DNA from: an uncultured Bacilli bacterium
Lineage (GTDB): Bacteria; Bacillota_I; Bacilli_A; RF39; UBA660
Length of the DNA stretch: 40,418 bases
Reading direction: 5' to 3'
Assembly: GCA_944358435.1 (NCBI GenBank)
Contig: CALVRD010000004.1
Span: 1 to 40,418, forward strand
Under the pieces are notes generated by a model. It was not told the origin of the DNA. It ran no database searches and saw nothing but the letters and a program-made list of their open reading frames with translations. This document shows positions 22,448 to 40,418 of this stretch, piece by piece (position 1 is the first letter of the stretch; every line of letters begins with the position of its first letter). Both the position numbers and the translations under genes were made by a program.

Positions 22448-23260
22448 ATGAAAAAGAAAAGAAACAACAAAAAACTGGCTGTATTTATTATTGCAAGTAT
22501 TTCCATTACTATTGTTATAATTATTTTACTTATAAATTTATTAAGTAAATTATTAATAGAAGAAAAACAATACAAAATTGAATCACGTATTGAAGAATTG
22601 GCCGAATATGAAAAAAATAATGTACAGTCACAAACATTGAGTTGGTTAAAAGTACAAGGTACAAATATTGACTATCCAGTATTATATTTTGAAAATGAAG
22701 AAGAATTATTAAATCAAAAAGGTGATTATTTATGGGGATTGGAAAATCCTGATGAACCGTTAAGACGGACCGTAGTTTTAGGTCATAATATTAGAAATGT
22801 TTCTAGTAATCCATTAATAACTTATAAAAATCATACACGTTTTGAACAACTTCTATCATTTATTTATTATGATTTTGCTAAAGATAATCAATATATCCAA
22901 TATACAAGAGATGGAAAAGATTATTTGTATAAAATATTTTCTGTAAGCTTTATTGAAGATAAAGATCTTATTTATTACGGAAATTTAACAGACAATGAGT
23001 TTAGAGAATATATAGATCATTCCCTTGATAACAGCTATTTCGACTATAATGAAGAAATAACTGATGATGATAAAATAATTACCTTAATAACTTGCACTAG
23101 ATTTTTTCAACAACAAGATGCAGAATACAAATTTAAAATCGAAGGAAAGTTAGTCAACTCTGAAGAAAAAAATTTGAATTCAAAAGTCGATAAAAAAGAC
23201 AATTATAAGGAAATAGAGGATATACTGAAAGGTGGAGAAGTAAATGAACAAAACGCATAA
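22448..23260 (+). CDS. srtB: Class B-like sortase
   Basis: Membrane-bound cysteine transpeptidase. The 270-residue protein has an N-terminal helix (10-33), then LSWLKVQGTNIDYPVLY, catalytic H113 in VVLGHN and catalytic C216 in TLITCTRF. The overall size and the SWLKV...IDYPV block match class B. The arginine usually about ten residues after the cysteine is not there (AEYKFKIEGKL). R218, two residues after C216, is the only nearby arginine, so the active site is unusual. Class B enzymes attach haem-uptake proteins or pilins to the wall. No LPxTG or NPxTN protein is evident in the window. It overlaps the next gene by 17 bases. Confidence 0.88.
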   Translation: MKKKRNNKKLAVFIIASISITIVIIILLINLLSKLLIEEKQYKIESRIEELAEYEKNNVQSQTLSWLKVQGTNIDYPVLYFENEEELLNQKGDYLWGLENPDEPLRRTVVLGHNIRNVSSNPLITYKNHTRFEQLLSFIYYDFAKDNQYIQYTRDGKDYLYKIFSVSFIEDKDLIYYGNLTDNEFREYIDHSLDNSYFDYNEEITDDDKIITLITCTRFFQQQDAEYKFKIEGKLVNSEEKNLNSKVDKKDNYKEIEDILKGGEVNEQNA

Positions 23261-26200: not shown

Positions 26201-26288
26201 ACCTGAAACATTTACAAATACTTATACAGCACTTTTAAAACAAAGTAGAGAAGAATACTTAAGTTATTTATCAGGAGGTAATAAATAA
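23244..26288 (+). CDS. Large cysteine-rich exported protein of the Tad-like locus
   Basis: I do not recognise the family. The 1014-residue protein has a signal or anchor helix (about 8-28) and a long outer part with about 25 cysteines. Many are in close pairs (CKKVCEE, CINSC, CIDKC, CGARC). Tyrosine, asparagine and glycine are abundant. There is no C-terminal membrane segment or sorting signal; the end reads LSYLSGGNK. Its start lies inside the sortase gene and its stop overlaps the next start (TAATG), so all are coupled with the Tad-like genes. It may be a tip adhesin or secreted substrate; this is inference from size and position. Confidence 0.75.
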   Translation: MNKTHKRIFGVILVLIILTTFWHVGMLVDAKNADDPNIEEKPGNVVKGQCNTVVAGSRYKFQTDVNGNVITLSTTSKGVFDVYVFEINRDANGNETANLVDKLLLGKDSGEGQSVINWPYKITNTFVTYEFVYTLKYDDDVCNGNGNGQLLRDENGSWKTTTENTYIFASQIDIAPPTDGMLLSNSSYNTICKAFREGNFGAYKKQFETAGLGEADFNQYREAARAKFLYCDSPQVQVDFKEKEVAMMIRNAIASVKIANLGTTGSINGPPNSEGLTIIGQDESTDLTDKPLTCPAYQNVNGAQIPNSSSTVKTYYKTVTTITDYDVYQSIPGNDAQCKKVCEETVTVNYGPPVASKAGLCFEYKVKVESKLNCMTEYIGDEPTIDDYKVCTPSAGCNSGHLHMFSGGPDVDFDSCINSCDGGKYSQKCIDKCYDDVYEDSGFLAISYADKINATQIAKKNNCLSDNLSDEMKEYCSLLKDQERIQKIDRSEWSSYFEKLKKAAIEAGTGYYYVSGGQIKWKMGQNGYWDEVGRYYVVNHPEDAVPSAAYYLAPSYNSVLKSKYRRGKTADGFLRNNYGNSYCGARCDWLGCSNAKKNGYYKNGYPDNPGIATNREFLNYDDAADVYKSDWEKYEAAVKECKAAAACTSNTSEFTIKVNNKTKSNPDADNWIEYHASISENGTLNGTTVNGKPLSDTTIILDRSGCYGENGKDGKVEYMTEWSFPGTWVNNKTGKISYQPNNGNAWHLKKEKFCTNLDSKYVNTDWWVQRILHPNTNVAEADKALIDEYNIQALAKDFGYFQWDLKVNCFYALYDSPFPDDGKSDDNKPLSYKSRSVDLKDIFPNMDDESATNNPNETGREPGFNWTDSASNIKNEDYEVTPGALYSAIQARGNEIYADDKKDLYLDYEFYLTPSDLNKIRRYSKQEANGNYSQFPGRINVANGIAFYKSALFRSDSTSSYRLEPDSIITLGALGVNNQERKDSNKPETFTNTYTALLKQSREEYLSYLSGGNK

Positions 26289-26767
26289 TGAACAAAGGAA
26301 TGTTAACAGTTGGTATTATTATACTTGCTTTAATTGGATTGTTGTTAATCAATGTTATTTCTAATTATTCAACAGGTAGTGAACTTGACTATTATTTAGT
26401 AAAGGAGACTGCTGAAGCTGCAATGGAAGACGCGATAGACGTAAAGTACTATCGCGACAACTATGCGCTTAGAATGGATAAAGACAAATTTGTTGAAAGT
26501 TTTTTAAGAAGATTTGCTGATAGTGTTGATAATACAAGATATTATAGAATTGGTTTTTATGATTTAAACGAAGTTCCACCAAAGGTTAGTATTAAAGTTG
26601 ATTCTGCTACAGTATTAAGCTTTGATAGTCAAAATTTATTAATGACAACTACTTATGATGGAATTGTTGAAAGTAATAGAAAAGAAGATGAATTTGTAAC
26701 TCAAGCTAATTCAGATAATACTAATGAAATTGGTAATCCAGTTACAGAAGAAAATTATGATTATTAA
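26288..26767 (+). CDS. Pseudopilin/TadE-like membrane protein (possibly DUF5411)
   Basis: The 159-residue protein has a short basic start (MNKG), one membrane helix (about 5-25) and an outer domain with KETAEAAMEDAIDVKYYRDNYALRMDKDKFVESFLRRF. The layout of leader helix plus small globular domain is that of minor pilins or TadE/TadG-like proteins. Its place just before cpaB-cpaF-tadB-tadC supports a role in the pilus. I recall similar proteins as DUF5411, without certainty. The start overlaps the previous stop by one base. Confidence 0.65.
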   Translation: MNKGMLTVGIIILALIGLLLINVISNYSTGSELDYYLVKETAEAAMEDAIDVKYYRDNYALRMDKDKFVESFLRRFADSVDNTRYYRIGFYDLNEVPPKVSIKVDSATVLSFDSQNLLMTTTYDGIVESNRKEDEFVTQANSDNTNEIGNPVTEENYDY

Positions 26768-26799
26768 TATGAATAAGTTTTAGAGAGTGAGGACATAAA

Positions 26800-27606
26800 A
26801 TGGGGAATAATAAAGGAGTAATAAGAAGAATATTACAAGATAAAAATACCGTAACATTGCTTGGTGTAGTAGCAGCAATACTTGTATTAATTATTGGATA
26901 TAATACTCGTGTTAGACAAGCAATTAACCCAATAACTGTACCATGTGCTAGAGAGACTATTAAAGGTGGAATTCAAATTACAGAGGATTTGGTTACATCT
27001 TGCCAGATTCCACAATCGATGATTCGAGGAAGTATTTTAAGAAATCAAGCACAAGTTATTGATAAATATAGTAGATCAGATAGTATTATTCCAGAAGGAA
27101 GTTTCTTCTATGAAACTGCTGTCGTTGAGGAAGAACAATTACCTGCAAATATTATTTTAAAATATCCTAAAGGTTATGTTTTGTATAATATGAGTGTTAC
27201 AACAGCATCTACTTATGGTAATTCAATTTATCCAGAAAACTATATTGATATTTATCTAAAAGCAGTAAGTAGATACGAAGAAGGAATTACTTCTAAAGAA
27301 GAAGCTGATCGTATTATGTTAGGTAAGTTAGTTGAAAACGTTAAAGTTTTAGCTGTTAAGGATGCAAGTGGTCAACCAGTATTTGCTAACTTAGATGAAC
27401 AAAGAACACCTGCAATGATAGTATTTGCGGTACCTGAAGAATATTATATTTTACTTAAAAAAGCAGAATTTTTAAGAAATTATGATACAACATTAATTCC
27501 TGTTCCAACAAATGAAAGCTTTGAAGATGAACCAGGAGAAGTTGCTATTAGTAGTGAAAGCTTAAAGAATTGGATTAATAGAGTTACTGTTTGGACAGAA
27601 GATTAA
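26800..27606 (+). CDS. cpaB: CpaB/RcpC-like SAF-domain protein
   Basis: The 268-residue protein has an N-terminal membrane helix (about 18-34). An SAF domain (about 45-115) follows, with VPCARETIKGGIQITEDLVTS and IIPEGSFFYETAVV, and then a second beta-rich domain to about 235. CpaB/RcpC proteins belong to Tad pilus loci. In two-membrane bacteria they work with the secretin. Here there is no outer membrane or secretin, so it would act at the cell wall side of the assembly. It lies directly before the ATPase gene. A pair of cysteines (C49, C67) lies in the SAF domain. Confidence 0.82.
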   Translation: MGNNKGVIRRILQDKNTVTLLGVVAAILVLIIGYNTRVRQAINPITVPCARETIKGGIQITEDLVTSCQIPQSMIRGSILRNQAQVIDKYSRSDSIIPEGSFFYETAVVEEEQLPANIILKYPKGYVLYNMSVTTASTYGNSIYPENYIDIYLKAVSRYEEGITSKEEADRIMLGKLVENVKVLAVKDASGQPVFANLDEQRTPAMIVFAVPEEYYILLKKAEFLRNYDTTLIPVPTNESFEDEPGEVAISSESLKNWINRVTVWTED

Positions 27607-27642
27607 AAAATAAAAAGAATAAAAGAGAAAAGAGTGGGTTAA

Positions 27643-29223
27643 ATGAACGTAAACATATTTGATAAATTGGACTTTGGTCCTTTTAGATCTTTATTAGATA
27701 ATGATGATATTACTGATATTTCTTTTGATAATAATGGGCAGATATGGATTCGTTCATTAACTCAGGGTTCTCTTAGAGTAGAAGTAAATGGTGCTACACC
27801 AGAGTTTGTTGAAAAACTTGCTTTTCAATGTTCTAATGTTATGGGAACAACGTTTAATAATGCTAAACCATTTTTGGATGCAGAGTCTGCAGAATTACGT
27901 TTGAACTTTGTTCATCCATCAATTGCGACTAATGGAATAGCCATGGTTATTCGTAAAACTCCAGCTAAGATTAGATTAGAGAAAGAAAAGTTAATAAATG
28001 AGGATTATTTTACTCAAGATATTCATGATATTTTAATTAAATGTGTTGAAGGACATTGTAATATTATTGTTTCTGGAGAAACTGGTTCTGGTAAAACAGA
28101 GTTTGTTAAATATTTAGCTAGTCATACTAAAGTAAATGAAAAAATTATTACAATTGAAGATACACTTGAATTGCATTTAGATAAGATTTTCCCTCAACGC
28201 GATATAGTTGCTATGAAGACAAATAATGTGGCTAGTTATACAGATGTTTTAGTTACTTGTATGAGACAGAATCCTAAATGGATTTTACTTTCAGAGGTAC
28301 GTAGTGCTGAAGCTGTATCGGCAGTTAGAAATTCAATTTCATCAGGACATAATATTTTATCAACAATTCATGCTGATAAAGCTTCAGCTATTCCATATCG
28401 TCTATATAGTTTGATGGAAACAGATCTTGATGTTAATCAATTTTTATCAACAATATATCGTTATATTCAATTAGGTGTTCATATTAGAGCATACTATAGT
28501 AAAGAAAGAGGAAAGTTTCATCGTGAAGTTGATGAAGTAGTAGAATTTTATGTTGATGAGAATAATCAACCTCAGAGTAGAGTAATTTATCAAAAAATAT
28601 TTGGTAAGGAACCTATTCTTAGAAAACCAAGTCAACATTTACTTGATTATTTAGAGAATCAAAATATTGATATATTATCTGTTACTAATAATATGGTTGA
28701 TGATCCGTTTGATGAAAATGAAGAAGGTGCTGAAACTGCACAAGAAGTTACTAATAGTAGTTATATAGAAGATAATGCTGAAAATAAAAATCAAGTTGTT
28801 CAAAATAATGAATACTCTGATACTGTTGTTACAGTACCTAGTGCAAGTGATTATGAACAAGTTGCAGAAGCTAATGTTTCATTATCTAATATGGTTGTAG
28901 GAGATGAACAGCAAATGACAGCTGGTACATATATACCTCAACAACCATTGCAAGTACAAGTACCTATGCAATCAGCAGTTGCTGAACAGATTCCAGTCGC
29001 AGTACAAGTTACTCCTCAACAACAAGTTATAACGGATGTTGTTCAACAAGTACAGATGCCTAGTCAGGTTATTCAGACTATGCCAAACCAACAAGTATTA
29101 GTATCTCAACAAATACCTAATCAAGTTCCAGTTAATGTTGCTAATACTTCTCAACCTATAAATAGTTCTGTATTACCATTTATCCCTCAAATTGAAGGGA
29201 CTCAACCACAAGGAAATGCTTAG
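27643..29223 (+). CDS. cpaF: CpaF/TadA-type secretion ATPase with a long C-terminal tail
   Basis: Hexameric ATPase that drives Tad pilus assembly or secretion at the inner face of the membrane. The 526-residue protein has an N-terminal domain (1-120) and the RecA-like core. Walker A GETGSGKT ends with K151-T152. The Asp box IEDTLEL is at 171-177, the Walker B-like WILLSEVR contains E218, and the His box is STIHADKAS. The core ends near 350. An acidic linker and then a low-complexity tail rich in glutamine, proline and valine (about 420-526) follow, which is not usual for CpaF. The tail may bind partners. The gene is followed by tadB. Confidence 0.93.
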   Translation: MNVNIFDKLDFGPFRSLLDNDDITDISFDNNGQIWIRSLTQGSLRVEVNGATPEFVEKLAFQCSNVMGTTFNNAKPFLDAESAELRLNFVHPSIATNGIAMVIRKTPAKIRLEKEKLINEDYFTQDIHDILIKCVEGHCNIIVSGETGSGKTEFVKYLASHTKVNEKIITIEDTLELHLDKIFPQRDIVAMKTNNVASYTDVLVTCMRQNPKWILLSEVRSAEAVSAVRNSISSGHNILSTIHADKASAIPYRLYSLMETDLDVNQFLSTIYRYIQLGVHIRAYYSKERGKFHREVDEVVEFYVDENNQPQSRVIYQKIFGKEPILRKPSQHLLDYLENQNIDILSVTNNMVDDPFDENEEGAETAQEVTNSSYIEDNAENKNQVVQNNEYSDTVVTVPSASDYEQVAEANVSLSNMVVGDEQQMTAGTYIPQQPLQVQVPMQSAVAEQIPVAVQVTPQQQVITDVVQQVQMPSQVIQTMPNQQVLVSQQIPNQVPVNVANTSQPINSSVLPFIPQIEGTQPQGNA

Positions 29224-29241
29224 GCGGAAGGAGTGAAAAGT

Positions 29242-30147
29242 ATGTACTTTTTTGAAGAATTGGTTATTATTTTGATTATTGCTTTTCTCGTTATAGCATA
29301 TAGAAATTATAAGGGACAGAATGTACACAAATTTATTACTGAACAAGTTGAAGCAATGTATGATAAATTTGCACCATATTCATTTAAAATTGTAAGAGAA
29401 AAGACAAAAGAGTTAGGACAGGAATATACAGCAAAACAATATACAGTTCAAATAGCAGTTATTTCTATTTTTACAGGGGTAGTAACATATCTTTACTTTT
29501 ATAATTTGATTATTTGTATAGTATATATTATTATAGCTATTATGTTTGTTCCATACTTATCTTATTTAAGATGCAAAAGAATATATAGTGAATTTATTTT
29601 TGAACAAATTCAAGTATATACTTCAAACGTTATTATGGAATTTGCAACTACACAATCATTTGTTAAAGCCTTAGAAGGTGTAAGAAATTCTGGTATTTTA
29701 GAGAATCCAGTTAAAAGAGATGTTGACTATATGATTGAACTTGCTTATCAAAATGGTAGTATCGATGAGTCACTTGATTATATGACTAAAATTTATCCAT
29801 TTTATATTGTAAAAAATATGCATCAATTATTTTTGCAAATTACTAAAGAAGGTGCTCAAAATTCAGCTGATTCATTGGATAATATGCAACTTGATATTGA
29901 TATGCTTGTTGAAGGAGTATATCGTGATAGAATTGAAAGAGCATCATTTCATAAATCATTTTTACAGTTTGGAATAATGCTTTATTTGATGGTAATGCTT
30001 GTTCAATATTTATTAGGTAGAGAAACTTATTTAATACTTTTGGATAGATGGTATGTAAAATTATTGTTGCATGGTGTTATAATTATTAATTCTTATTTCC
30101 TATTGAATGGAGAAAAATACTATAATGAGAATGTAGGTGCTGAATAA
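29242..30147 (+). CDS. tadB: TadB-like membrane protein (T2SSF domain)
   Basis: Inner-membrane platform protein on which the ATPase acts. The 301-residue protein has an N-terminal helix (about 3-22) and a helix pair (about 75-110). The T2SSF-type cytosolic four-helix region (110-240) has VIMEFATTQSFVKALEGVRNSG. Two C-terminal helices (about 245-262 and 275-290) follow. I start at the ATG at 29242, eight bases after AAGGAG; the in-frame GTG at 29233 overlaps that ribosome site. The stop overlaps the next start (TAATG). Confidence 0.85.
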   Translation: MYFFEELVIILIIAFLVIAYRNYKGQNVHKFITEQVEAMYDKFAPYSFKIVREKTKELGQEYTAKQYTVQIAVISIFTGVVTYLYFYNLIICIVYIIIAIMFVPYLSYLRCKRIYSEFIFEQIQVYTSNVIMEFATTQSFVKALEGVRNSGILENPVKRDVDYMIELAYQNGSIDESLDYMTKIYPFYIVKNMHQLFLQITKEGAQNSADSLDNMQLDIDMLVEGVYRDRIERASFHKSFLQFGIMLYLMVMLVQYLLGRETYLILLDRWYVKLLLHGVIIINSYFLLNGEKYYNENVGAE

Positions 30148-30956
30148 TGGAAGCCTTAGTAGTTGGAGCAATTATATTAGGAATATTTTTTTATAATAAT
30201 ACTATTGATAGAAAAAAATTTATAATTGATAATGAAAAATTTTTTCAAGTATTTAGAGAAGAAGATTATACGTTCTTAGTTTATGCTAAGTATGGTGAAG
30301 ATGCCGATGCTGATCAGTTATATATTAGAAGAACTTTATATGCAATTTTAACTTTCTTTGTTGTTTTAGGATTTACTATAAGTAGTAATTCAACAGGAAG
30401 TTTATTTAATTCACAGTTTTTCTTAAACTTAGTTTTATCATTTGTAGTTGCTGTATTAATATTTAAAATGCCATATGTACAGTTAAAGAAATTTTACAAA
30501 GCACACTTACATGAAATTGATATTATGTTACCGTATTATTTAAAAAGTTTAGAGATTTTAATTCAACATTATACGGTTCCAGTAGCACTTGGTAAATCAA
30601 TTAATGATGCTCCAGATATATTTAAACCTGGTCTTAGAATTTTAATTGATAAAATAAATGCAGGAGATTCAACGATTGATCCATATATGGAATTTGCTAA
30701 TACTTATCCTGTAAGAGATTCTATGAGAATGATGCGTTTGTTATATCGTTTAGGAATTGGTTCTCAAGAAAAAAAGCAGGAAAGATTATTGATGTTTTCA
30801 AGAACTGTATCTAATCTTCAACATAAAGCTAGAGAAACTAAATATAAGGAACGTTTAGGTCATATGGAAAATCAAACTATGATTATGCTTGTCGTAACTG
30901 GTGTTGGAGTAATGTTAATTATTTTAATATCAATGATGTTGATGTTTAGTATGTAA
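30147..30956 (+). CDS. tadC: TadC-like membrane protein (T2SSF domain)
   Basis: Second platform protein of the Tad machinery. The 269-residue protein has helices near 3-14, 62-80 and 87-107. A T2SSF-type domain follows with YYLKSLEILIQHYTVPVALGKSIND, RMMRLLYRLGIGSQEKKQERLL and KYKERLGHMENQ. A last helix lies at 245-268. The pair TadB-TadC overlapping by one base is the standard Tad order. It is the last gene before the pilin gene's own promoter. Confidence 0.85.
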   Translation: MEALVVGAIILGIFFYNNTIDRKKFIIDNEKFFQVFREEDYTFLVYAKYGEDADADQLYIRRTLYAILTFFVVLGFTISSNSTGSLFNSQFFLNLVLSFVVAVLIFKMPYVQLKKFYKAHLHEIDIMLPYYLKSLEILIQHYTVPVALGKSINDAPDIFKPGLRILIDKINAGDSTIDPYMEFANTYPVRDSMRMMRLLYRLGIGSQEKKQERLLMFSRTVSNLQHKARETKYKERLGHMENQTMIMLVVTGVGVMLIILISMMLMFSM

Positions 30957-30972
30957 AGATAATATATAAATA

Positions 30973-31001
30973 TTGTTAATTATATAAATATTTGTTATAC
31001 T
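30973..31001 (+). promoter_or_regulatory. Promoter of the Flp-like pilin gene
   Basis: -35 TTGTTA at 30973-30978, 17-base spacer, extended -10 TGTTATACT ending at 31001. It allows the pilin to be made in larger amounts than the upstream machinery. Confidence 0.75.
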
Positions 31002-31031
31002 ATAAATGTATAGTAGAAAGGAGATTTTATA

Positions 31032-31190
31032 ATGAAAGCAGCGACAGGAGAATTAAATTTAACAGTAATTACACTTATAGCTATTGCAGCTGTAATTGGC
31101 TTTTTTTGGCTAATGTGGCCTTCAATTCAAAGTTCAATTAATTCACAATGGGCAAATATTTCTGGTGGAATGATTGTTCAACAAAGATAA
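31032..31190 (+). CDS. Small Flp-like pilin
   Basis: A 52-residue protein beginning MKAATGELNLTVITLIAIAA and ending MIVQQR. It has a six-residue leader ending in glycine, a glutamate right after it, one membrane helix (about 10-30) and a short hydrophilic tail. This is the layout and size of Flp/Tad pilins, where cleavage after the glycine would be done by a prepilin peptidase. The strict Flp motif (glutamate-tyrosine five residues after the cut) is not present, so the match is by form and context. It follows AAAGGAG, has its own promoter and lies next to tadC. It is the best candidate for the main filament subunit. Confidence 0.75.
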   Translation: MKAATGELNLTVITLIAIAAVIGFFWLMWPSIQSSINSQWANISGGMIVQQR

Positions 31191-31209
31191 ATAAAAGGGG
31201 CGATATGGA

Positions 31210-31665
31210 ATGCGTGATGCGTTTGGTGGAATTGTAAATATTACTATCATAATTGTTTTCTTAGTAATCGTAAGTGGTTATTTAGCATTTAATGTTAATT
31301 ATACAAAGGCTTTCCGTGTAAAAAATAAAATTATCACCACAATTGAACAATATGAGGGTAATTGTTCAATGATAAATGGTGCTTGTGATCAAGCTATTAC
31401 AAATTATATGCGTGATATTGGTTATAGTGTTCAAACTGATTTCGCTTTAGATGGTTATACTTGTCGTAATGGTTATTGTATACAAGAAGTAACTGCGGAA
31501 AATAATACTGATGATACAATAGTTTTTGAAAATAATGATGGTAAGGTTTACTATAAAGTTGTAACTGTTATATATATTGATATACCAATTATAAATAAGA
31601 TTATGCCACAACTGAAGGTTTTTCAAGTATCTGGAACAACTAAAGTATTTAGACCAACAAGGTGA
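31210..31665 (+). CDS. Minor pilin or TadE-like protein
   Basis: The 151-residue protein begins MRDAFGGIVNITIIIVFLVI. It has a short leader, one helix (about 8-28) and an outer domain with two cysteine pairs (NCSMINGACDQ and TCRNGYCIQE). The fold is not recognised. The position 19 bases after the pilin and before the TadZ-like gene points to a minor subunit. The start is the ATG at 31210; an ATG at 31205 is out of frame. It ends with TGA. Confidence 0.7.
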   Translation: MRDAFGGIVNITIIIVFLVIVSGYLAFNVNYTKAFRVKNKIITTIEQYEGNCSMINGACDQAITNYMRDIGYSVQTDFALDGYTCRNGYCIQEVTAENNTDDTIVFENNDGKVYYKVVTVIYIDIPIINKIMPQLKVFQVSGTTKVFRPTR

Positions 31666-31670
31666 TATAG

Positions 31671-32699
31671 ATGAACGTTATAGTAGCAAATGATAGACAA
31701 GTAGAACTATCTAAAATTGATATTGATACAATAAAAAGTATATCTGGAACATTTGAACCACAAGTATTAGTTGAAATGTTTAGAACTTTCTTTTTTAATA
31801 AAATGGTTTTAGATGTAACAGCTCTTAAAAATTATGAGAGTGTAAATAGTTATAGAACATTAATAAGTGGTTTAGATGCTGAAAAAATAATATTTTATTT
31901 ACCAGAAAATACAAACTTATGTACATCAAGTTTTTTATCACAGTTAATAAATATTGGTATATATAATTTTACAACTAACTTAGAAGGTGTAAAATACTTA
32001 ATAAAGCATTCTAATTCCTTTAAAGAGGTTGAACATATTTTAACCTTAGCAAATAATCGTCCTACAATAGAAACCCCTAAAGAACATGTAGATCCTTATA
32101 CAGTAGGATTAAATAGTAATGTTAATGTTAGTGTGGGTCCTAAAATTATTGGTATAAAGAATTTAACAAAACAAGGTGGAGCAACAACTTTTACTTATAT
32201 GCTTAAGAATGAGTTGTCTGCTGTGTTAGGAAGAAATACTGTTCTAGCAATTGAAATAGATAAAAATGATTTTCATGTCTTTAATGATAAAGAAATGATT
32301 TCTGCAAATAGAAATGATGTTAGATCTATTATAAGAAAATCAAGCAATTACCAGGTAATTTTAATTGATTTAAATGAATTTCCTGATTTAAGTATTTGCA
32401 GTGATATATATTATTTACTAGAACCTAGTATTATTAAACTTAATAAATTAATAAGAAGAGATAGTAATATTTTTGAAAAGATGAGAGGGAAAAAATTAGT
32501 TCTTAATCAAAGCCTTCTTTCTGAAAAAGACATTACTGATTTTGAATATGAAGCTAAGACTGATGTTTTTTATAATATGCCACCTCTTGATGATCGTAAA
32601 AGAAATGAAGCTATGAAAAATTTTCTATACAAAGCTGGTTTTATTACTGGTGAGATTAAAGAAAATTCAACTAAAGTGTTTGGTTTATTTAGAAGGTAA
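31671..32699 (+). CDS. TadZ/CpaE-like protein with degenerate P-loop
   Basis: The 342-residue protein lacks membrane helices. The N-terminal half (1-130) looks like an atypical receiver domain. The C-terminal half (about 155-342) follows the MinD/ParA fold pattern. It contains IIGIKNLTKQGGATTFTYML where a normal protein has KGGxGKTT, and VILIDLNEFP at the Walker B place. The second lysine and glycine of the Walker A are gone, so ATP hydrolysis is doubtful. CpaE/TadZ proteins set the cell position of Tad pili. Context supports that role: it closes the pilin operon. The name is by fold and place, not by strong motif. Confidence 0.65.
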   Translation: MNVIVANDRQVELSKIDIDTIKSISGTFEPQVLVEMFRTFFFNKMVLDVTALKNYESVNSYRTLISGLDAEKIIFYLPENTNLCTSSFLSQLINIGIYNFTTNLEGVKYLIKHSNSFKEVEHILTLANNRPTIETPKEHVDPYTVGLNSNVNVSVGPKIIGIKNLTKQGGATTFTYMLKNELSAVLGRNTVLAIEIDKNDFHVFNDKEMISANRNDVRSIIRKSSNYQVILIDLNEFPDLSICSDIYYLLEPSIIKLNKLIRRDSNIFEKMRGKKLVLNQSLLSEKDITDFEYEAKTDVFYNMPPLDDRKRNEAMKNFLYKAGFITGEIKENSTKVFGLFRR

Positions 32700-32702
32700 T
32701 AA

Positions 32703-32731
32703 TTGACAAAAAAAAATATATAAGATATTAT
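32703..32731 (+). promoter_or_regulatory. Near-consensus promoter of the two-helix membrane protein
   Basis: -35 TTGACA at 32703-32708 (perfect), 17-base spacer, -10 TATTAT at 32726-32731. It is the best promoter by consensus in the window. Confidence 0.85.
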
Positions 32732-32755
32732 ATTGATAGCGAAGGAGAGGTATTT

Positions 32756-33115
32756 ATGTCAAGTTTATTTCAAATTGGTATAGGTGGATCAGTTGGTGGT
32801 GCTTGTCAAGGATTGGAACCACTAATTAGAATTTTAAAAGGTGTACTTAAATATGTTGCTATTATAATTCCAATTGCATTAATGTTATTTGGAATTATAG
32901 ATTTAGGTAAAGCAGTAATTGCTAGTGATGAAAAAGAAGTTAAGAGTGCACAATCTAGATTAATTAAAAGAGTTGTTTACGCAATTGTAATATTCTTAGT
33001 ACCAAGTCTTATTTCATTAGTGATGAACCTTGTAGCTCTAGGAGCTGACCAAAGTGAAACTAATACTACTGATTGGGCAAGTTGCTGGAATAGTGTATAC
33101 ATCGTAAATAAATAA
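32756..33115 (+). CDS. Small two-helix membrane protein, VirB2/TrbC-like layout
   Basis: The 119-residue protein has a glycine-rich start, a first helix (about 30-50), a charged loop with KAVIASDEKEVKSAQSRL and a second helix (about 70-93). A short tail ends in WASCWNSVYIVNK. One cysteine lies before the first helix and one in the tail. Size and layout resemble VirB2/TrbC pilin-like proteins of conjugation systems and similar small proteins of mycoplasmas. No signal cleavage site is clear and no VirB4 is nearby. A near-consensus promoter in front and a terminator behind make it a strongly expressed single gene. Function unknown. Confidence 0.75.
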   Translation: MSSLFQIGIGGSVGGACQGLEPLIRILKGVLKYVAIIIPIALMLFGIIDLGKAVIASDEKEVKSAQSRLIKRVVYAIVIFLVPSLISLVMNLVALGADQSETNTTDWASCWNSVYIVNK

Positions 33116-33131
33116 TTATAATTATTTATAT

Positions 33132-33160
33132 GGGCAATGTTTGTCATTGTTCTTTTTTTT
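33132..33160 (+). terminator. Intrinsic terminator
   Basis: Stem GGCAATG with CATTGTT (one G-T pair), short loop, then eight T. It ends the two-helix membrane protein transcript. Confidence 0.85.
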
Positions 33161-33337
33161 GACTTTTTTAGTAGAAAATTTTATTTGTTCTGTAATTTCA
33201 GGTGCGAAGTGAGAAAGATAAAATTTTTTTTATTTTTTGTGTAATTTATTATAATTTGTTTTACATTAAAATTTTTAAAAAATATGTTTTTTTTAATTAT
33301 TTATTTGTTAAAATATTTGCATTTTATTTACTTGTTC

Positions 33338-33366
33338 TTGCATTAGAATTAAAAGCGTTATATACT
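33338..33366 (+). promoter_or_regulatory. Promoter of the TasA-like gene array
   Basis: -35 TTGCAT at 33338-33343, 17-base spacer, -10 TATACT at 33361-33366, 26 bases before the start codon. Confidence 0.7.
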
Positions 33367-33391
33367 TATAATAAAGGTGGGGCAGATAGCT

Positions 33392-33982
33392 ATGAAGAGA
33401 TTAGATTATAAGTTAATTAGTATTATTATTATAATCTTATTTTTTATGGTGATTTGTGTCAGTTTTGGTTATGCGGCACTTAGTTCATCATTGAAAGTTA
33501 GCTTTGGAAGTACAACTCAGATTAAGACAACATGGGATATTGGTTTTGAGAATGCAACTGTTAATGGTGTAGCAAGTGGTAATGATGTTTCAAAAATTAG
33601 TTGTGGAAGTGCTACGGCAACGTCTGCGACAGTTTTTGGAATTAATATGACACTTGCTAATCCTGGTGATAAGTGTTCTTATACTTTTACTGTTGTTAAT
33701 AGTGGAAATATTGGAGCTAAAATAAGTGCAATTACGCCAACGAAGCCGGCTGCTACTACCTGTGAAACATTAAGTGGTTCAACTATGATTTGTGGAAACA
33801 TTACGTATAAGTTAAGATATGACTCTGCAAATAGTACAAATCTATTAAATGTAGGCGATGTTCTTGATGGAGAAAGTCAAAGGTTGGTTGTACTTACTGC
33901 CGAGTATAGTGGTGAAACAGCTGAAGCTGATGATTTTTATCAAGATGGCTTTAAATTTACTATTAATTATGTACAAGGTTAA
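33392..33982 (+). CDS. TasA/camelysin-like exported fibre protein 1
   Basis: The 196-residue protein has a positively charged start, a membrane helix (about 7-24) and the export motif FGYAALSSSLKVSFG at its end. One beta-sandwich domain follows, with TWDIGFEN, NPGDKCSYTFTVVNSGNIGAKIS and CGNITYKLRYD. This is the pattern of TasA/camelysin (M73-like) proteins, which SipW-type signal peptidases process and which form surface fibres. Four conserved cysteines can form two disulfides. I start at the ATG at 33392 after AAAGGTGGGG; the in-frame GTG at 33377 belongs to that ribosome site. First of four tandem relatives. Confidence 0.8.
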   Translation: MKRLDYKLISIIIIILFFMVICVSFGYAALSSSLKVSFGSTTQIKTTWDIGFENATVNGVASGNDVSKISCGSATATSATVFGINMTLANPGDKCSYTFTVVNSGNIGAKISAITPTKPAATTCETLSGSTMICGNITYKLRYDSANSTNLLNVGDVLDGESQRLVVLTAEYSGETAEADDFYQDGFKFTINYVQG

Positions 33983-34065
33983 ACAGATTTAGTTGAATTA
34001 TTTTTTTTGTTACACATAGTAAAAAGATTCTATTTGAAAAAAATTTAAAGGAGCGTGTGGAAAAA

Positions 34066-34656
34066 ATGACAAATGGAAGAAAAGAAATGTATATTATTAT
34101 TGGACTATTAGCTGTAGCAGTTGTTGGTTTATCAGTTGGTTATGCAGCGCTTAGTTCAACGTTAGAAACTACAGTTGGAAAGGTTACTCAATCTAATCTT
34201 AAATGGTCTATTGCCTTTGAAGGTTCAACTGCAAGTGCAGAAGAAGAGGGTACAAGTTCAACTGGAAGAAGTTGTGGTGTTGCTACAATTAGTGGTACTC
34301 AAGTTACTGTAGCTGATACTAAGGTATCTAAGCCAGGCGATAAATGTACTTATACTCTTAAAGTAGTAAATTCTGGTGGAATTGATGCTTCTTTAACTAC
34401 AATTACACCTGTTAAGCCTACTGGTTCAGATGTTACATGTGATACTGCAGATGGTGGAAATATGGTATGTGGAAATGTCACTTATAAATTGACTAGTGAT
34501 GCTTCTGGTGATACTGTGTTAGAAAATGATACTACAGTAACTGCTGGTTCTGGTCAAACAATGTATTTAGTAGTTTCATATACTGGTGCTGGACTTAACG
34601 AATCTGAGGTTGTACAAACTGGTGCTGGATTCACATTAGTTTATAATCAAAAATAA
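34066..34656 (+). CDS. TasA/camelysin-like exported fibre protein 2
   Basis: The 196-residue tandem relative has a helix (about 8-25), LSVGYAALSSTLETTVG at the export junction, and a domain with KPGDKCTYTLKVVNSGGIDASL and CGNVTYKLTSD. The four cysteines are conserved with protein 1. The ATG at 34066 matches the start of protein 3 (MTNGRKEMY against MTKGRINVY). The in-frame GTG at 34057 is only three bases from the AAAGGAG site. The 83-base gap in front has no terminator and only weak promoter-like boxes, so it is probably transcribed with protein 1. Confidence 0.8.
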   Translation: MTNGRKEMYIIIGLLAVAVVGLSVGYAALSSTLETTVGKVTQSNLKWSIAFEGSTASAEEEGTSSTGRSCGVATISGTQVTVADTKVSKPGDKCTYTLKVVNSGGIDASLTTITPVKPTGSDVTCDTADGGNMVCGNVTYKLTSDASGDTVLENDTTVTAGSGQTMYLVVSYTGAGLNESEVVQTGAGFTLVYNQK

Positions 34657-34677
34657 AAATAGTGAAGGAGAATTAAA

Positions 34678-35265
34678 ATGACAAAAGGAAGAATAAATGT
34701 ATATTATGTTATTATTACAGTTTTATCATTAGCTATTGTTGGATTATCTGTAGGTTATGCTGCACTTAGTACAACATTAAAGGTTACATTTGGTAATGTA
34801 ACACAAGCAGTTAATACATGGAATGTTGGTTTTAAACCTGGAAGTGTAACGGCTGAAGTTGGTGGAACAAGTGATACAGGAAGAGTTTGCGGTAATGCAA
34901 CTGTTACTACTAATACTGCAACTGTTGATGCTGCTACTTTATCAAAACCTGGAGATAGTTGTACTTATGCTTTAACTATTGAAAACAAGGGATCAATTGC
35001 TGCAAATTTAGCATCAATTACTCCTACATATCCTGGAGAAACTTCTTGTACTACAAGTGGAGCTAGTATGGTATGTGGAAATATTACTTATAAATTAACT
35101 ACTGATTCATCTGGAAATGATTTATTAACAGCTCCAAAAACTTTAGCTGCAACTTCTGGAACTTTACCTATCTATTTGGTTGTTGAATATACTGGTGAAG
35201 ATTTATCAGAAAGTGCTTCTCCTCAAACTAATGCTTCATTTACATTAACGTATAATCAAGCATAA
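34678..35265 (+). CDS. TasA/camelysin-like exported fibre protein 3
   Basis: The 195-residue protein is the closest relative of protein 2. It has a helix (about 7-25), LSVGYAALSTTLKVTFG, TWNVGFKPGSVTAEVGGTSDTG and KPGDSCTYALTIENKGSIAANL. CGNITYKLTTD and the final FTLTYNQ are shared with protein 2. A good AAGGAG site lies eight bases before the ATG. The close likeness of 2 and 3, including GGTSDTG against EGTSSTG and the same ending, points to recent duplication. The proteins could copolymerise in a fibre. Confidence 0.82.
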   Translation: MTKGRINVYYVIITVLSLAIVGLSVGYAALSTTLKVTFGNVTQAVNTWNVGFKPGSVTAEVGGTSDTGRVCGNATVTTNTATVDAATLSKPGDSCTYALTIENKGSIAANLASITPTYPGETSCTTSGASMVCGNITYKLTTDSSGNDLLTAPKTLAATSGTLPIYLVVEYTGEDLSESASPQTNASFTLTYNQA

Positions 35266-35271
35266 TTGGAT

Positions 35272-35865
35272 ATGCAAAGAGATAGAAAAACTGAAGTTTA
35301 TTATGTTACTATTGGAATATTAGTTTTTGCGGTTTTAATGCTAGGAGTCGCTTATGCATCACTTAATTCAACTCTTAAGAAATCATCCGCTTTTGCCCAT
35401 CCATTTGTGGCAACGTGGGATGTTGGTTTTGAACCTGGTAAAGTTTTAGGAAAATCACTTAGTTATTCAGCTGGTAATAATAAAAGTTGTGGTTCAATTG
35501 ATGTTACTGAGAACATAGTTAGTATTGGTAATTTGGGATTAAATACCCCTGGATATGGTTGCAGTTATGCTTTAAAAATTCGAAATCGTGGATCGGTTTC
35601 TGCAAAAATTGATGAAATTATTTCAAGTCAACCTTCTGGTAAAACTTGTAGTGTTAAAGAAGATTCTATTATGACGTGTGGTAATTTAACATATAAATTA
35701 ACATATGACTATGGTGGTAAGAAATTACTTACTACTGGGGATAGATTGGATGCTCAAATTGGTGTTTTGCCGGTATATCTAATTATTATGTACTCAGGAT
35801 CAGATATTGAAAACAATGATATACAAGTGGGTGCTTCATTTACTTTGATTTATAATCAAGTATAA
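35272..35865 (+). CDS. TasA/camelysin-like exported fibre protein 4
   Basis: The 197-residue protein is the most divergent of the four. The junction reads LGVAYASLNSTLKKSS, with a changed and longer segment (AFAHPFVATWDVGFE) after it. NTPGYGCSYALKIRNRGSVSAKI, CGNLTYKLTYD and the four cysteines are kept. No clear ribosome site precedes either the TTG at 35266 or the ATG at 35272, and protein 3 ends at 35265. Translation probably depends on ribosomes finishing protein 3, which would lower its amount. It might be a fibre cap or anchor, like the minor TapA in Bacillus; that is a guess from position next to sipW and divergence. Confidence 0.75.
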   Translation: MQRDRKTEVYYVTIGILVFAVLMLGVAYASLNSTLKKSSAFAHPFVATWDVGFEPGKVLGKSLSYSAGNNKSCGSIDVTENIVSIGNLGLNTPGYGCSYALKIRNRGSVSAKIDEIISSQPSGKTCSVKEDSIMTCGNLTYKLTYDYGGKKLLTTGDRLDAQIGVLPVYLIIMYSGSDIENNDIQVGASFTLIYNQV

Positions 35866-35882
35866 AGAAAGGAAGAATTACT

Positions 35883-37022
35883 ATGAAAAGTCAATATACT
35901 AAAATGCTTCTAGTTCAATTGTTTTTAATAGTATTTTTCCTTTTCAATTTTATTATAGATAGGTTTTATAATACTTATTTATATTTAGTGGAGTTATTAA
36001 TAATTGGACTCGTATTTTGGAAAGTTGTTGGTACAGAAAAAAGGTCCGATAAGACTAAAACAGATTTGTTGTTACTTATTATAATTGCTACTATTTCTTA
36101 TTATGTATTTACTTACTTTATAGGGTTTTTCATTGGATTTATTTATACTACTTATAGTAGAAGATTTCTAGGAATTGTTAGGAATATAATTTTAGTAGTT
36201 GCATTTATATTACTTAATGAATCAATACGTGAAATGATTATTAAAAAGTCTAGATATTACTTTTCACTTATTATTTCATCAGTATTTGTTTTTACTGCAT
36301 TAGAACTAGTTACTAATGTAACTTTAATGAATATTAATACAAAAGAAGATGTTTTAAGGGTATTTTTGACACTTGTTGTTCCAATTTTTGTTAAAAATAT
36401 ATTTTTAACTTTTTCAACTTATACTACGGATAAATTTAATAGTATAATTTATCAATTATTAATGATGGTTCCTAATTATTTGGTACCAGTTTTTCCAGAT
36501 TTTGGTGAATATATTACTGTTACTTTGTTAACTATTCAGCCAATTATAACAATGGTTGTAGCACTTAGAATTTTGTATTTTAAAAGGGAGAAAGTTCAAA
36601 ATACTAAGAAATATATGGTTTTTAAAAATTTTCAGAAAATCTTTTTAACCTTTTTACTATTATTCTTAGTACTTGTTGTTTATTTAATTAGTGGTTTTGG
36701 CAGACATATTACTTTGGCAATTGGCTCTGCTTCAATGACTGGAACTTTTAGTAAAGGTGATTTAGTTTTTATTGATAAGAAAAAGGCAGCTTATGAAAAG
36801 GGTGATATTATTGCATTTAGACAAGAAAATACAGTAATTGTTCATAGAATTATTGAAGTAATTTCTAATGATGATAATTTTTATTATTTGACTAAAGGTG
36901 ATGCAAATAATGGTGAAGATGTTTGGGTATTAAAAGAGGAAGACATTATTGGAAAATATATTGGTAAAATTAAGTGGGTTGGTTGGCCAACAGTTTTATT
37001 AAGTGAGCTAGTTCACGGATAG
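35883..37022 (+). CDS. sipW: SipW-type signal peptidase I fused to a multi-helix membrane domain
   Basis: The last 110 residues are an ER-type (SipW/Sec11-like) signal peptidase. Catalytic serine S284 lies in SASMTGTFSKGDLVF, and H321 in VIVHRIIEV replaces the usual lysine. The acidic residue is in TKGDANNGED (340-346). In front lie about seven membrane helices over residues 7-268, where ordinary SipW has one or two. The peptidase domain would face outside. It lies 17 bases after the four TasA-like genes, as sipW accompanies tasA in Bacillus, so these are its likely substrates. The extra helices have no recognised function. Confidence 0.87.
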   Translation: MKSQYTKMLLVQLFLIVFFLFNFIIDRFYNTYLYLVELLIIGLVFWKVVGTEKRSDKTKTDLLLLIIIATISYYVFTYFIGFFIGFIYTTYSRRFLGIVRNIILVVAFILLNESIREMIIKKSRYYFSLIISSVFVFTALELVTNVTLMNINTKEDVLRVFLTLVVPIFVKNIFLTFSTYTTDKFNSIIYQLLMMVPNYLVPVFPDFGEYITVTLLTIQPIITMVVALRILYFKREKVQNTKKYMVFKNFQKIFLTFLLLFLVLVVYLISGFGRHITLAIGSASMTGTFSKGDLVFIDKKKAAYEKGDIIAFRQENTVIVHRIIEVISNDDNFYYLTKGDANNGEDVWVLKEEDIIGKYIGKIKWVGWPTVLLSELVHG

Positions 37023-37052: not shown

Positions 37053-38387
37053 ATGAAACAAAATGATAGCGATAATTTGAATATTAATAATGATATAGAA
37101 ACATTGTCATTTGATGATATGTCAAGAAAAAATGATGATACTACCTCATTACCTATGCAAGACATTATTTCAGAATCAGCACCAGAGGATTTAACTATCC
37201 AAACAGATGTTCATACATTTAATAATGTCGAAAATGTCAATGCTGTTGAGTTTCCTGAACAAAGCATTTATGATGCATCTATTTCTACAGATACTAAAAA
37301 GGAAGCAAATAATTTATCTAAAAATGATATACCTAATAATAGTGGTAATCGTTCTACTAAATATGTTAGTTATGAGAAGAGAATGCTTTTCTTAGTGTTT
37401 TCATCAGTAGCTTGCTTATTACTTTCTATAGTTTCTATTAATTTAGCTAGTACTTTTTATGATAAGAGTTTAGTTAATTATACTGTTAGTAGTTCATCAA
37501 GTTATAATGTTTGTCTTTCAGAAAATGAATATTACGAATCTGAATGTTTAGATGAAGGATTTGAATATATTTCTGCTCTTGTTAAGAGTATGAAAGGTAA
37601 TTTTACATATGATGAGGTGTATACTGCTAAAACTAAATATGATTATTCATATTATGTAATGGCTGATGTAAAGATTTTTAATGGTGAAAATGAAGAAAAA
37701 GTATTATATAAAAATAGTGAATTATTAGGTGAAAAAAAGCATATTACTGGTAGTGATAAAAACGTCAAAATACATGCTGATGTTGAAATTCCATTTATAA
37801 AATATAGAGATTTTGTTATTGGTTATATTAATAAATATTCACTAGTTTCTAGTGGAGAAGTAGAGATTTCTTTATATTTGGAAAGTGAGAGAGGAGTTCA
37901 AAAAATTTCTAGTTTAGTTATTCCTCTTACAAATCAAACATTTACTATTGGAAAGACTGCATTTACAAATAATGGTTTAGTTGAAAATACAATTGATTCT
38001 AATTATAGAAATGCATTTATATTCTTTTTAACTTTGGCTTTGTTATTTGTTATACTTGGAATGGTAGCATTAGTATTATTAATTTTATTCTTTATTAAGA
38101 CTTCTAAACCTGTAAAGCCTTATCAAAAGGAACTTGCAAGATTATTAAAAGAATATGATTGTGTTATTGCAGAAACTAAAGTTGCTAACATTAAATTTAC
38201 TAATAAAAAGATGTGTAAAGTTAAAAGCTTTTTAGAGTTATTAGATATAAGAGATACTTTAGAAAAACCAATTCTTTATGAAAGAGTAAATAATGTTAAA
38301 AGCAATTTCTATGTAGAAGATGTTGATACTGTTTATATTTATGTAATGAAGGAAGCTGACTTTATTAATAACAAGAAGACTAAATAA
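37053..38387 (+). CDS. DUF5305-like membrane protein
   Basis: The 444-residue protein has an acidic, disordered cytosolic N-terminus (1-108), helix 111-132, an outer beta-rich domain (133-318) with a cysteine pair (C154, C165), helix 321-348 and a cytosolic end of about 95 residues. That end reads KPYQKELARLLKEYDCVIAE, then SFLELLDIRDTLEKPILYE and YIYVMKEADF, the pattern of DUF5305. DUF5305 proteins are often found beside SipW-type peptidases and camelysin-like proteins in Bacillota and archaea. Function unknown. It ends the TasA-sipW transcript, which closes at the terminator at 38432. Confidence 0.75.
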   Translation: MKQNDSDNLNINNDIETLSFDDMSRKNDDTTSLPMQDIISESAPEDLTIQTDVHTFNNVENVNAVEFPEQSIYDASISTDTKKEANNLSKNDIPNNSGNRSTKYVSYEKRMLFLVFSSVACLLLSIVSINLASTFYDKSLVNYTVSSSSSYNVCLSENEYYESECLDEGFEYISALVKSMKGNFTYDEVYTAKTKYDYSYYVMADVKIFNGENEEKVLYKNSELLGEKKHITGSDKNVKIHADVEIPFIKYRDFVIGYINKYSLVSSGEVEISLYLESERGVQKISSLVIPLTNQTFTIGKTAFTNNGLVENTIDSNYRNAFIFFLTLALLFVILGMVALVLLILFFIKTSKPVKPYQKELARLLKEYDCVIAETKVANIKFTNKKMCKVKSFLELLDIRDTLEKPILYERVNNVKSNFYVEDVDTVYIYVMKEADFINNKKTK

Positions 38388-38431
38388 TTATTTTTCAATG
38401 GTTTTATATAATGATAATTTATTAAATAAAG

Positions 38432-38465
38432 AACTGACAAGGGGTAATTCTCTTGTTAGTTTTTG
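38432..38465 (+). terminator. Intrinsic terminator
   Basis: Stem AACTGACAAG with CTTGTTAGTT (one G-T pair), 10-base loop, followed by T residues. Confidence 0.85.
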
Positions 38466-38479
38466 TTTGTGATATTTAC

Positions 38480-38508
38480 TTGTAATAATAAAAAAAATAA
38501 TATATACT
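38480..38508 (+). promoter_or_regulatory. Promoter of the glycine-rich protein gene
   Basis: -35 TTGTAA at 38480-38485, 17-base spacer, -10 TATACT at 38503-38508. Confidence 0.7.
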
Positions 38509-38544
38509 TTTAATAGAAAATAAGACTAGAAATGAGGCATGAAT

Positions 38545-40418
38545 ATGAATAAAAAATTAACTAATAAAAAGGTGATTTTTTATATGATACTAATGATTTT
38601 TGTAATAACTTCGATGATTAGTATTGGTTTTTCTGCTTTAGATTCAAGTCTTTCGGTAACCGGTGATTTAGTATATAGAAAAGATGAAAATATTAGAATT
38701 ACTGGATTAAAAGTAAGTGATCAAAAAGATAATGCTTCAAATATATATACTCCAAAGTATACAACTAACAAGTTGATAGTAGGGATAAATCTTCCTAATA
38801 TAGATTCAGAAATAACTTATGAGATTGATATAACAAATTACTCAAGTAGTAATATGTGTTTAGAAAGTATTAATAATTTAATCTATAGTAATGAGTTAAT
38901 TGAATATGAAATAGTAAATCTTGATTATAATCAAAAGATACCTGGAGGTGGGTATTTACTAAAGGCAAATATTACCTTTAGATATAAAGATAAATCGATA
39001 TTACCAACTAACACAAAATTAGATGCAACTATTCAATTTAATTTCAAAGAATATATTTCAGGTTCTTTAATAACTTCCTATAGTTGTGCTAATGTAAATA
39101 GTGGTTTAGCTCCTTATAATTTCACTTATACTGGAAATTGTGAGGTAATAGATGATGGAGATAATAACTGGAGGGTAAAGTTCTTAACTAGTGGTAATTT
39201 ATCTTTTAATAATTTAGCTAATGCTAGTGATGGTATTGATGTTTTCCTTGTTGGTGGAGGCGGTGCCGGAGGTAAAGGAAAAACTGGTTATATTAATAAT
39301 TCAGACCATGGTTCCGGTGGCGGAGGTGGAGGCAGTGGCTATACTGCGACCTATAAGAATATTAATATAGATACACAAACTTATGAAATTGTAATTGGTG
39401 ATGGAGGTACTTCTCCTTCCCAAAATGGAAATGATACAACAGGATTTGGTTTTACTGTAAAAGGTGGTAAAGGCGGTGTAAGTACAAGTGATTACGGTAC
39501 GCCAGGAGCTGGTGGTATTGGTGGATCAAATGGTGGCTTTGGTGCTCAGTATAAAGTCAAAGGTACAGCTCCTGGAAGTGATGGTAATCCAGGTCAAGGA
39601 ACAACTACTCGTGAATTTGGCGAATCAACTGGCATATTATATGCCGGTGGCGGCGGCGGTGGAGTAGGACGAAATTGGAATAGCGGTTCTTCACCAGTTG
39701 TACCTGGCGGTGATGGAGGTGGAGGAAAATCTGGCGAAGCTGGTGTCCAAAATACTGGCGGCGGTGGTGGAGGTGGTAATTATAATGGTTCCCAAAAACC
39801 AGCTAATGGTGGTTCTGGTATAGTTATAATTAGAAACTCTCGAACTACTATTGCTGATAATAAAAATACCATACCTAAATTTACTTATACTGGTAAATAT
39901 GAAATTGTAGATGATAATGACAACATAATTGGTGTATCGGAAGGTAATTGGAAAATAAGATTTTTAACTTCTGGAACTTTAACTATAACCGATCTTCGTA
40001 GTGCCGCTAATGGAGTTGATATATTCTTAGTGGGTGGCGGCGGTGCCGGAGGCAACGGAGATACTGGTTATATTAATGATTCAGACCATGGTTCAGGTGG
40101 TGGTGGTGGAGGTAGTGGTTATACTGCAACCTATAAGAATATTAATATAAATACACAAACTTATGAAATTGTAATTGGTGATGGAGGTACTTCTCCTTCC
40201 AAAAACGGAAATGATACAACAGGATTTGGTTTTACTGTAAAAGGTGGTAAAGGCGGTGTGAGTACAAGTAATTACAATACGTCAGGAGCTGGTGGTATTG
40301 GTGGATCAAATGGTGGCTTTGGTGCTCAGTATAAAGTCAACGGTACAGCTCCTGGAAGTGATGGTAATCCAGGTCAAGGAACAACTACTCGTGAATTTGG
40401 TGAAGCAACTGGTAGATT
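38545..40418 (+). CDS. Glycine-rich repeat surface protein, partial (runs off the window)
   Basis: Open from the ATG at 38545 (after GAGG) to the window end, at least 624 codons. The start MNKKLTNKKV is followed by a helix (about 10-28) and ISIGFSALDSSLSVTGDL. This is the same kind of export junction as the TasA-like proteins, and a camelysin-like domain runs to about residue 180. Two long glycine-rich repeats of about 260 residues follow, from about residues 193 and 447. Each starts TYTG, then F-L-T-S-G and D-V/I-F-L-V-G-G-G-G-A-G-G, the pattern of the glycine-rich surface domain family (Gly_rich_2-like). This part is much richer in G and C than the rest of the window. It is probably an adhesin or fibre-associated protein. 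Confidence 0.8.
   Translation, partial: MNKKLTNKKVIFYMILMIFVITSMISIGFSALDSSLSVTGDLVYRKDENIRITGLKVSDQKDNASNIYTPKYTTNKLIVGINLPNIDSEITYEIDITNYSSSNMCLESINNLIYSNELIEYEIVNLDYNQKIPGGGYLLKANITFRYKDKSILPTNTKLDATIQFNFKEYISGSLITSYSCANVNSGLAPYNFTYTGNCEVIDDGDNNWRVKFLTSGNLSFNNLANASDGIDVFLVGGGGAGGKGKTGYINNSDHGSGGGGGGSGYTATYKNINIDTQTYEIVIGDGGTSPSQNGNDTTGFGFTVKGGKGGVSTSDYGTPGAGGIGGSNGGFGAQYKVKGTAPGSDGNPGQGTTTREFGESTGILYAGGGGGGVGRNWNSGSSPVVPGGDGGGGKSGEAGVQNTGGGGGGGNYNGSQKPANGGSGIVIIRNSRTTIADNKNTIPKFTYTGKYEIVDDNDNIIGVSEGNWKIRFLTSGTLTITDLRSAANGVDIFLVGGGGAGGNGDTGYINDSDHGSGGGGGGSGYTATYKNININTQTYEIVIGDGGTSPSKNGNDTTGFGFTVKGGKGGVSTSNYNTSGAGGIGGSNGGFGAQYKVNGTAPGSDGNPGQGTTTREFGEATGR
39241..39638 (+). repeat. Long tandem repeat, copy 1
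   Basis: Nearly identical in DNA to 40021-40418 at a fixed distance of 780 bases (260 codons). For example, the stretch around TCAGACCATG occurs at 39301 and 40081. Differences are few and mostly single bases. The copy continues past 39638, but its partner leaves the window. Confidence 0.9.
40021..40418 (+). repeat. Long tandem repeat, copy 2 (cut by window end)
   Basis: Second copy of 39241-39638, 780 bases further on and in the same frame. More copies may follow outside the window. Confidence 0.9.

Follow-up and report, generated by a model that had tools for sequence, protein, structure and literature searches.

The closest described relatives of the locus reported here are operons that combine a SipW-type signal peptidase with secreted fibre proteins. 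In Bacillus subtilis, tapA-sipW-tasA provides a single main subunit, which is free of cysteines, together with TapA, and the TasA fibres are homopolymeric (PMC9674648). The Bacillus cereus sipW-tasA/calY operon encodes two paralogous subunits, one SipW and the accessory protein CapP, and TasA and CalY were shown by experiment to form heterofilaments (PMC13082335). In the anaerobe Clostridium perfringens, sipW-bsaABCRSD encodes several secreted proteins alongside a single sipW, as well as its own two-component system; BsaA, the only one for which polymerisation was shown, gives sortase-independent filaments (PMC7395162). We analyzed a stretch of 40,418 bases (the window), which is one whole contig (C4) of the 1.24 Mb, 79-contig genome of an uncultured Bacilli bacterium of the gut. 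It carries four tandem genes for TasA-like exported proteins (T1 to T4), a SipW-like peptidase and a DUF5305 membrane protein. These genes probably form an operon dedicated to the assembly of a mixed extracellular fibre, which would belong to the TasA/camelysin/AbpX superfamily.

The locus shares with the B. subtilis system (fibre structure 8aur) SipW-type cleavage of the form A/A-hydrophobic, the proline box PGD...NxG, a beta-sandwich (predicted for the subunits here) and an N-terminal tail that is a candidate donor strand. It differs in its several, cysteine-bearing subunits, in DUF5305, which the described B. subtilis operon lacks, and in its peptidase; the Bacillus SipW model spans 189 positions and does not include the polytopic domain of about 250 amino acids seen here. 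As in B. cereus, paralogous subunits accompany one SipW; there are four to eight subunits in such arrays instead of two, and DUF5305 and a long tip-like protein instead of CapP. AbpX of the archaeal bundling pili (AbpA/AbpX) is detectably homologous to the subunits in an hmmsearch against PDB sequences (9sj2, E 1e-4; 9rhp, E 1e-3), but these pili are archaeal and the matched stretch is the domain, not the junction. Haloarchaeal SipW loci (L071, a plasmid, and L086, a haloarchaeal-looking contig) likewise combine an archaeal-type signal peptidase with neighbouring exported proteins that are SipW-type or similar, and L086 has DUF5305 as well; they differ in having an N-terminal peptidase domain and subunits that do not resemble T1 to T4.

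Several subunits are thus not new in themselves, since the B. cereus and C. perfringens operons are precedents. The original prediction contrasted the window with one main subunit in Bacillus, which holds for B. subtilis and fails for B. cereus. Relative to the literature found, the apparently new features are conserved paired subunit cysteines, arrays of four to eight subunits with a conserved edge type among them, a polytopic SipW, and DUF5305 and a long exported protein as recurrent partners. This parts list is richer than in any described member of the family that we found among Bacillus and archaeal biofilm fibres.

The operon and its TasA-like subunits

All genes of the operon lie on the forward strand. 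T1 (33392-33982) and T2 (34066-34656) have 196 amino acids each and T3 (34678-35265) has 195. T4 (35272-35865), the most divergent, has 197 from its ATG; an alternative TTG start at 35266 would add two. The peptidase gene (35883-37022) and the DUF5305 gene (37053-38387) follow, with gaps of 6-83 base pairs throughout. A hairpin scan placed terminator-like hairpins at the ends of this unit only: one upstream (33132-33152, 8-pair stem and T run) and a strong one downstream (38429-38464, 16-pair stem and T run). The peptidase gene itself contains a weak 5-pair stem at 36978, and an Rfam search gave no match. The original prediction had thus identified the right genes, from 33392 to 37022, and ended the system too early: DUF5305 is part of the unit, and the gene of the long exported protein begins at 38539. 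Its description of four related exported proteins of 195-197 residues with a common junction and four cysteines, followed by an endoplasmic reticulum (ER)-type SipW-like peptidase, is borne out by the open reading frames, the alignment and the peptidase analysis below.

The mature parts of T1 to T4 are 33-51% identical in pairs. We compared a profile of 61 homologues with a TasA and camelysin alignment using hhalign (probability 93.5%, E 2.2e-7). The match covers the junction and the proline box, which is the best-conserved part of TasA/camelysin alignments (PMC10151520). Against TasA alone (a query identical to 8aur), exactly the PGD...NxG stretch is aligned (SKPGDSCTYALTIENKGSIAAN/LKPGDKLTKDFQFENNGSLAIK). 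These profile comparisons and the AbpX match, rather than Pfam, support the TasA-like identity that had been predicted and the placement of T1 to T4 in the TasA/camelysin/AbpX superfamily. Two family homologues match PF12389 (G140, E 8e-4; G017, E 3e-4). A literature search on TasA in RF39 and camelysin in Tenericutes returned nothing relevant.

The common cleavage junction is [GA]YA/[AS]L (T1, GYA/ALSSSL; T2, GYA/ALSSTL; T3, GYAALSTTL; T4, AYA/SLNSTL). All four have the SipW-type arrangement of an aromatic P2, Ala at P1, a small P1' and a hydrophobic P2', which is kept across 59 close and 36 distant alignment rows. The GYA/AL junction of T1 to T3 resembles TWA/AF of TasA, a site that is poorly processed by LepB (PMC10269814). 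Conservation is higher over mature residues 1-16 than over the remainder, at 2.93 versus 2.52 bits in the close set and 2.43 versus 1.95 bits in the distant set. The hydrophobic fraction is 1.00 at +3, 0.98 at +7, 0.93 at +9, 0.85 at +11 and 0.97 at +14, and low at the mostly polar positions between. Part of this conservation may come from recognition by the peptidase, which would not be expected to extend as far as +14.

The mature T3 model (61 sequences) is a confident all-beta sandwich, with a predicted local distance difference test score (pLDDT) of 92 and a predicted template modelling score (pTM) of 0.85. Its first ~15 residues are poorly ordered and of low pLDDT. A conserved, alternating tail that is unfolded in an otherwise confident model looks like the signature of a donor strand. 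The unfolded tail also fits monomeric surface or membrane-retained Ig-like proteins, for example ligand binders, that would be processed by the peptidase and never polymerise, as do the uninserted tail of a tandem model and the lack of a significant fold match, both described below. We regard this as improbable: the tail is the better conserved part and alternates like a strand, and the nearest solved relative by sequence is the bundling protein AbpX.

Four aligned cysteines are present in each subunit, and T1 has an extra one within the signal region. The same four occur in all 59 close-family rows, including the four window genes. Among the 61 homologues, 27 have none, 21 have C3 and C4, 12 have all four and one is an exception, so that cysteines are gained or lost in pairs. 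The pattern is less clean among the distant rows of a second alignment, where C3 is often out of register. C97 and C106 (mature numbering) lie on neighbouring predicted strands of the T3 model. From this pairing, two disulfides that staple the sandwich of each subunit are likely. Elsewhere in the same genome, L096 (G000:C34, 1384-1965) encodes a thioredoxin-fold protein that is exported, anchored in the membrane and equipped with a CPHC motif; it is a candidate thiol oxidase for the exported cysteines.

Several results weigh against a TasA-type fibre. No window protein reached PF12389 or TIGR04088, or any other Pfam or NCBIfam cut-off for TasA/camelysin, and PF12389 has no match in the genome of the window. 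A Foldseek search of the T3 model against the PDB gave nothing below E 1e-3: the TasA fibre 8aur matched weakly (E 0.08, probability 0.77, template modelling score 0.39), FimA matched with E 0.02, and FimA-type pilins had the highest probabilities among the weak matches (0.97-0.98). A viral structure library gave nothing stronger than E 0.02. The genome has no Thioredoxin_4-type (DsbA-like) match and no VKOR match above cut-off. Because T3 and T4 share one frame, reading through the TAA between them gives a natural tandem, which was modeled with the 11 paired rows only. The two domains formed with no strand insertion (pTM 0.43, tail pLDDT below 50). We take this as a weak negative because the alignment is shallow and the uncleaved signal helix acts as a tether; polymerisation is therefore something that we infer. 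The structural check proposed in the original prediction thus gave the sandwich and the free tail, with no insertion and a weak match to the TasA fold.

The peptidase, DUF5305 and the long exported protein

The peptidase (379 amino acids) matches TIGR02228 above cut-off (E 1.7e-24). Against the Bacillus SipW model NF046067 it scores 66 bits (E 2.3e-18), below the equivalog cut-off of 190 bits; it is SipW-like by sequence and is not filed as an orthologue of Bacillus SipW. It is ER-type, with Ser-His-Asp instead of Ser-Lys, because Ser284, His321 and Asp340/346 are invariant across 18 homologues. Hydropathy indicates that the N-terminal ~250 amino acids are polytopic, with about seven hydrophobic segments and one more leading into the catalytic part. 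Such a domain is unusual. It has six invariant residues (G81, G85, N101, E113, R116 and P205) and no convincing relative in Pfam or the PDB. Two more SipW-type peptidases in the same genome are of ordinary length (213-222 amino acids), each beside other small exported proteins (L091, G000:C33, 8050-9469; L092, G000:C8, 2656-5259).

The DUF5305 protein matches PF17231 with E 6e-15 (55.7 bits, gathering score 29). Its hydropathy suggests an N-terminal part of ~110 amino acids, a transmembrane segment, a middle domain of ~200 amino acids, a second transmembrane segment and a tail of ~95 amino acids. DUF5305 is present in 59 of 65 genomes with subunits and in 14 of 80 without (both, 59; one of the two, 6 and 14; neither, 66). 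The Fisher p value of 5e-20 overstates independence because the genomes are related; physical adjacency is the stronger evidence. SipW and DUF5305 are also adjacent in L087 and in L086, a haloarchaeal-looking contig. The latter (G220:C49; ~60% guanine and cytosine, haloarchaeal-looking genes) belongs to a genome placed in the class of the window and is probably a contaminant; its strong DUF5305 (E 3e-46) adjoins a SipW-type peptidase. One open reading frame next to the haloarchaeal peptidase of L071 looked like a DUF5305 candidate, but Pfam rejected this. A search of plasmids for DUF5305 found none, and a literature search found no paper on it.

The long exported protein (38539-40418, forward strand) runs off the contig. 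It has the junction type (SIGFSALDSSLSVTG) and tail type of T1 to T4 and a glycine-rich C-terminal domain (Gly_rich_2). Its counterparts in relatives keep the SALxxxLxIxG-type N-terminus and vary in their C-terminal modules (glycine-rich, DUF285 or Flg_new, the Listeria-Bacteroides repeat), a pattern that would suit a matrix partner or an adhesin-like tip. A 37-nucleotide promoter-like element occurs in two copies, 70% identical, at 33337-33373 and 38479-38515, 18-23 base pairs upstream of T1 and of the long protein. The two units are possibly regulated together through it.

Recurrence of the unit and subunit types

Of 145 genomes sampled from the same family, 65 have subunit relatives that match a profile of the four window genes at E<=1e-3. 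In a sample of 296 drawn across the class, only three genomes from other families matched, all of them weakly (best 3e-7). The named records that carry relatives belong to uncultured bacteria, some of them of gut or rumen origin, under the labels Tenericutes, Bacillales, Bacilli or Erysipelotrichaceae. Arrays in the close group hold 4-8 subunits each. The unit of subunits, SipW and DUF5305 recurs in unrelated surroundings (L042, L043, L044, L046, L047, L049, L055 and L056; L058, L059, L060, L062, L063, L065, L066 and L068), and L089 has two such units side by side.

These surroundings bear on the cluster directly upstream of T1 on the same strand (22448-33115), of which T1 to T4 could be substrates or pilins. 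We consider this very improbable: the terminator at 33132 lies in between, relatives carry the unit elsewhere, and the signals are SipW-type, not prepilin-type. The cluster is Tad/type IV secretion-like and encodes a sortase, a cysteine-rich exported protein of 1014 amino acids, DUF5411, a CpaB-like protein, a TadA-type ATPase, two membrane proteins in the TadB and TadC positions and a small T4SS_pilin-like protein. The gene at 20636-22432 codes for a large protein that has a bacterial surface Ig-like domain; in other genomes, relatives of this protein lie near TasA-like arrays (L040/L064, 3668-3973; L062, 2-1501; L044, 17428-18870).

In the subunit tree, seven further records each contribute one subunit to the clade of T1, with modest support (83/90). 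This T1 type occurs once per array in the 8 records, first in L057, L058 and L068 and between DUF5305 and SipW in L059, L060, L061 and L063. The likelihood rises when L062_4 is added to the clade. Monophyly of T1 to T4 is rejected (approximately unbiased test, p 0.007), and the subunit types predate the lineage of the window. Since the T1 type is conserved between genomes, a mixed multi-subunit fibre is likeliest, with a division of labour that these sequence comparisons favour.

The paralogues could instead form separate homopolymers, or be alternative matrix proteins such as antigenic variants, that share one peptidase, as the homopolymeric TasA fibres of B. subtilis would suggest. Other subunit types are expanded within lineages (L066, L068), and some family genomes hold more than 20 copies, with at least 22 TasA-like genes in G131, G141 and G060. 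We think this unlikely, given the single compact operon, the conserved T1 type, the rejection of local duplication and the heterofilaments of B. cereus. The original prediction had proposed a mixed or switchable fibre; the first is the likeliest reading and the second is not supported, with switching by inversion rejected. Only weak, AT-rich, imperfect inverted repeats, none of them convincing, were found, the open reading frames adjoining the operon include no recombinase, and the operon is a single terminator-bracketed unit.

For the mixed fibre, the following mechanism is proposed. T1 to T4 would be exported through Sec and cleaved at [GA]YA/[AS]L by the membrane-embedded peptidase, which would release the N-terminal tail (A-[AS]-L-S-x-x-L-x-I-x-F). 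The tail could then enter the beta-sandwich of the next subunit as a donor strand, with two putative disulfides stapling each sandwich. T1, often the edge type of the array, would most likely start or end the fibre and T2 to T4 would form its shaft. DUF5305 may serve as the membrane anchor or nucleator of the fibre, and the long protein as an adhesin that caps it. That this is a distinct class of fibre biogenesis is a tentative and rather doubtful extension. In such a class, the polytopic SipW would couple cleavage to assembly on a DUF5305 membrane platform, T1-, shaft- and tip-type subunits would join in fixed order through donor strands and disulfides, and a SipW-DUF5305 core would be common to Bacilli and archaea.

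With this finding, the range of TasA-type matrix fibres would come to include uncultured Bacilli with small genomes from the gut and rumen. DUF5305 gains a concrete genetic partner, and the parts list of subunit types, DUF5305, polytopic SipW and variable long protein makes the start, growth and end of the fibre testable.

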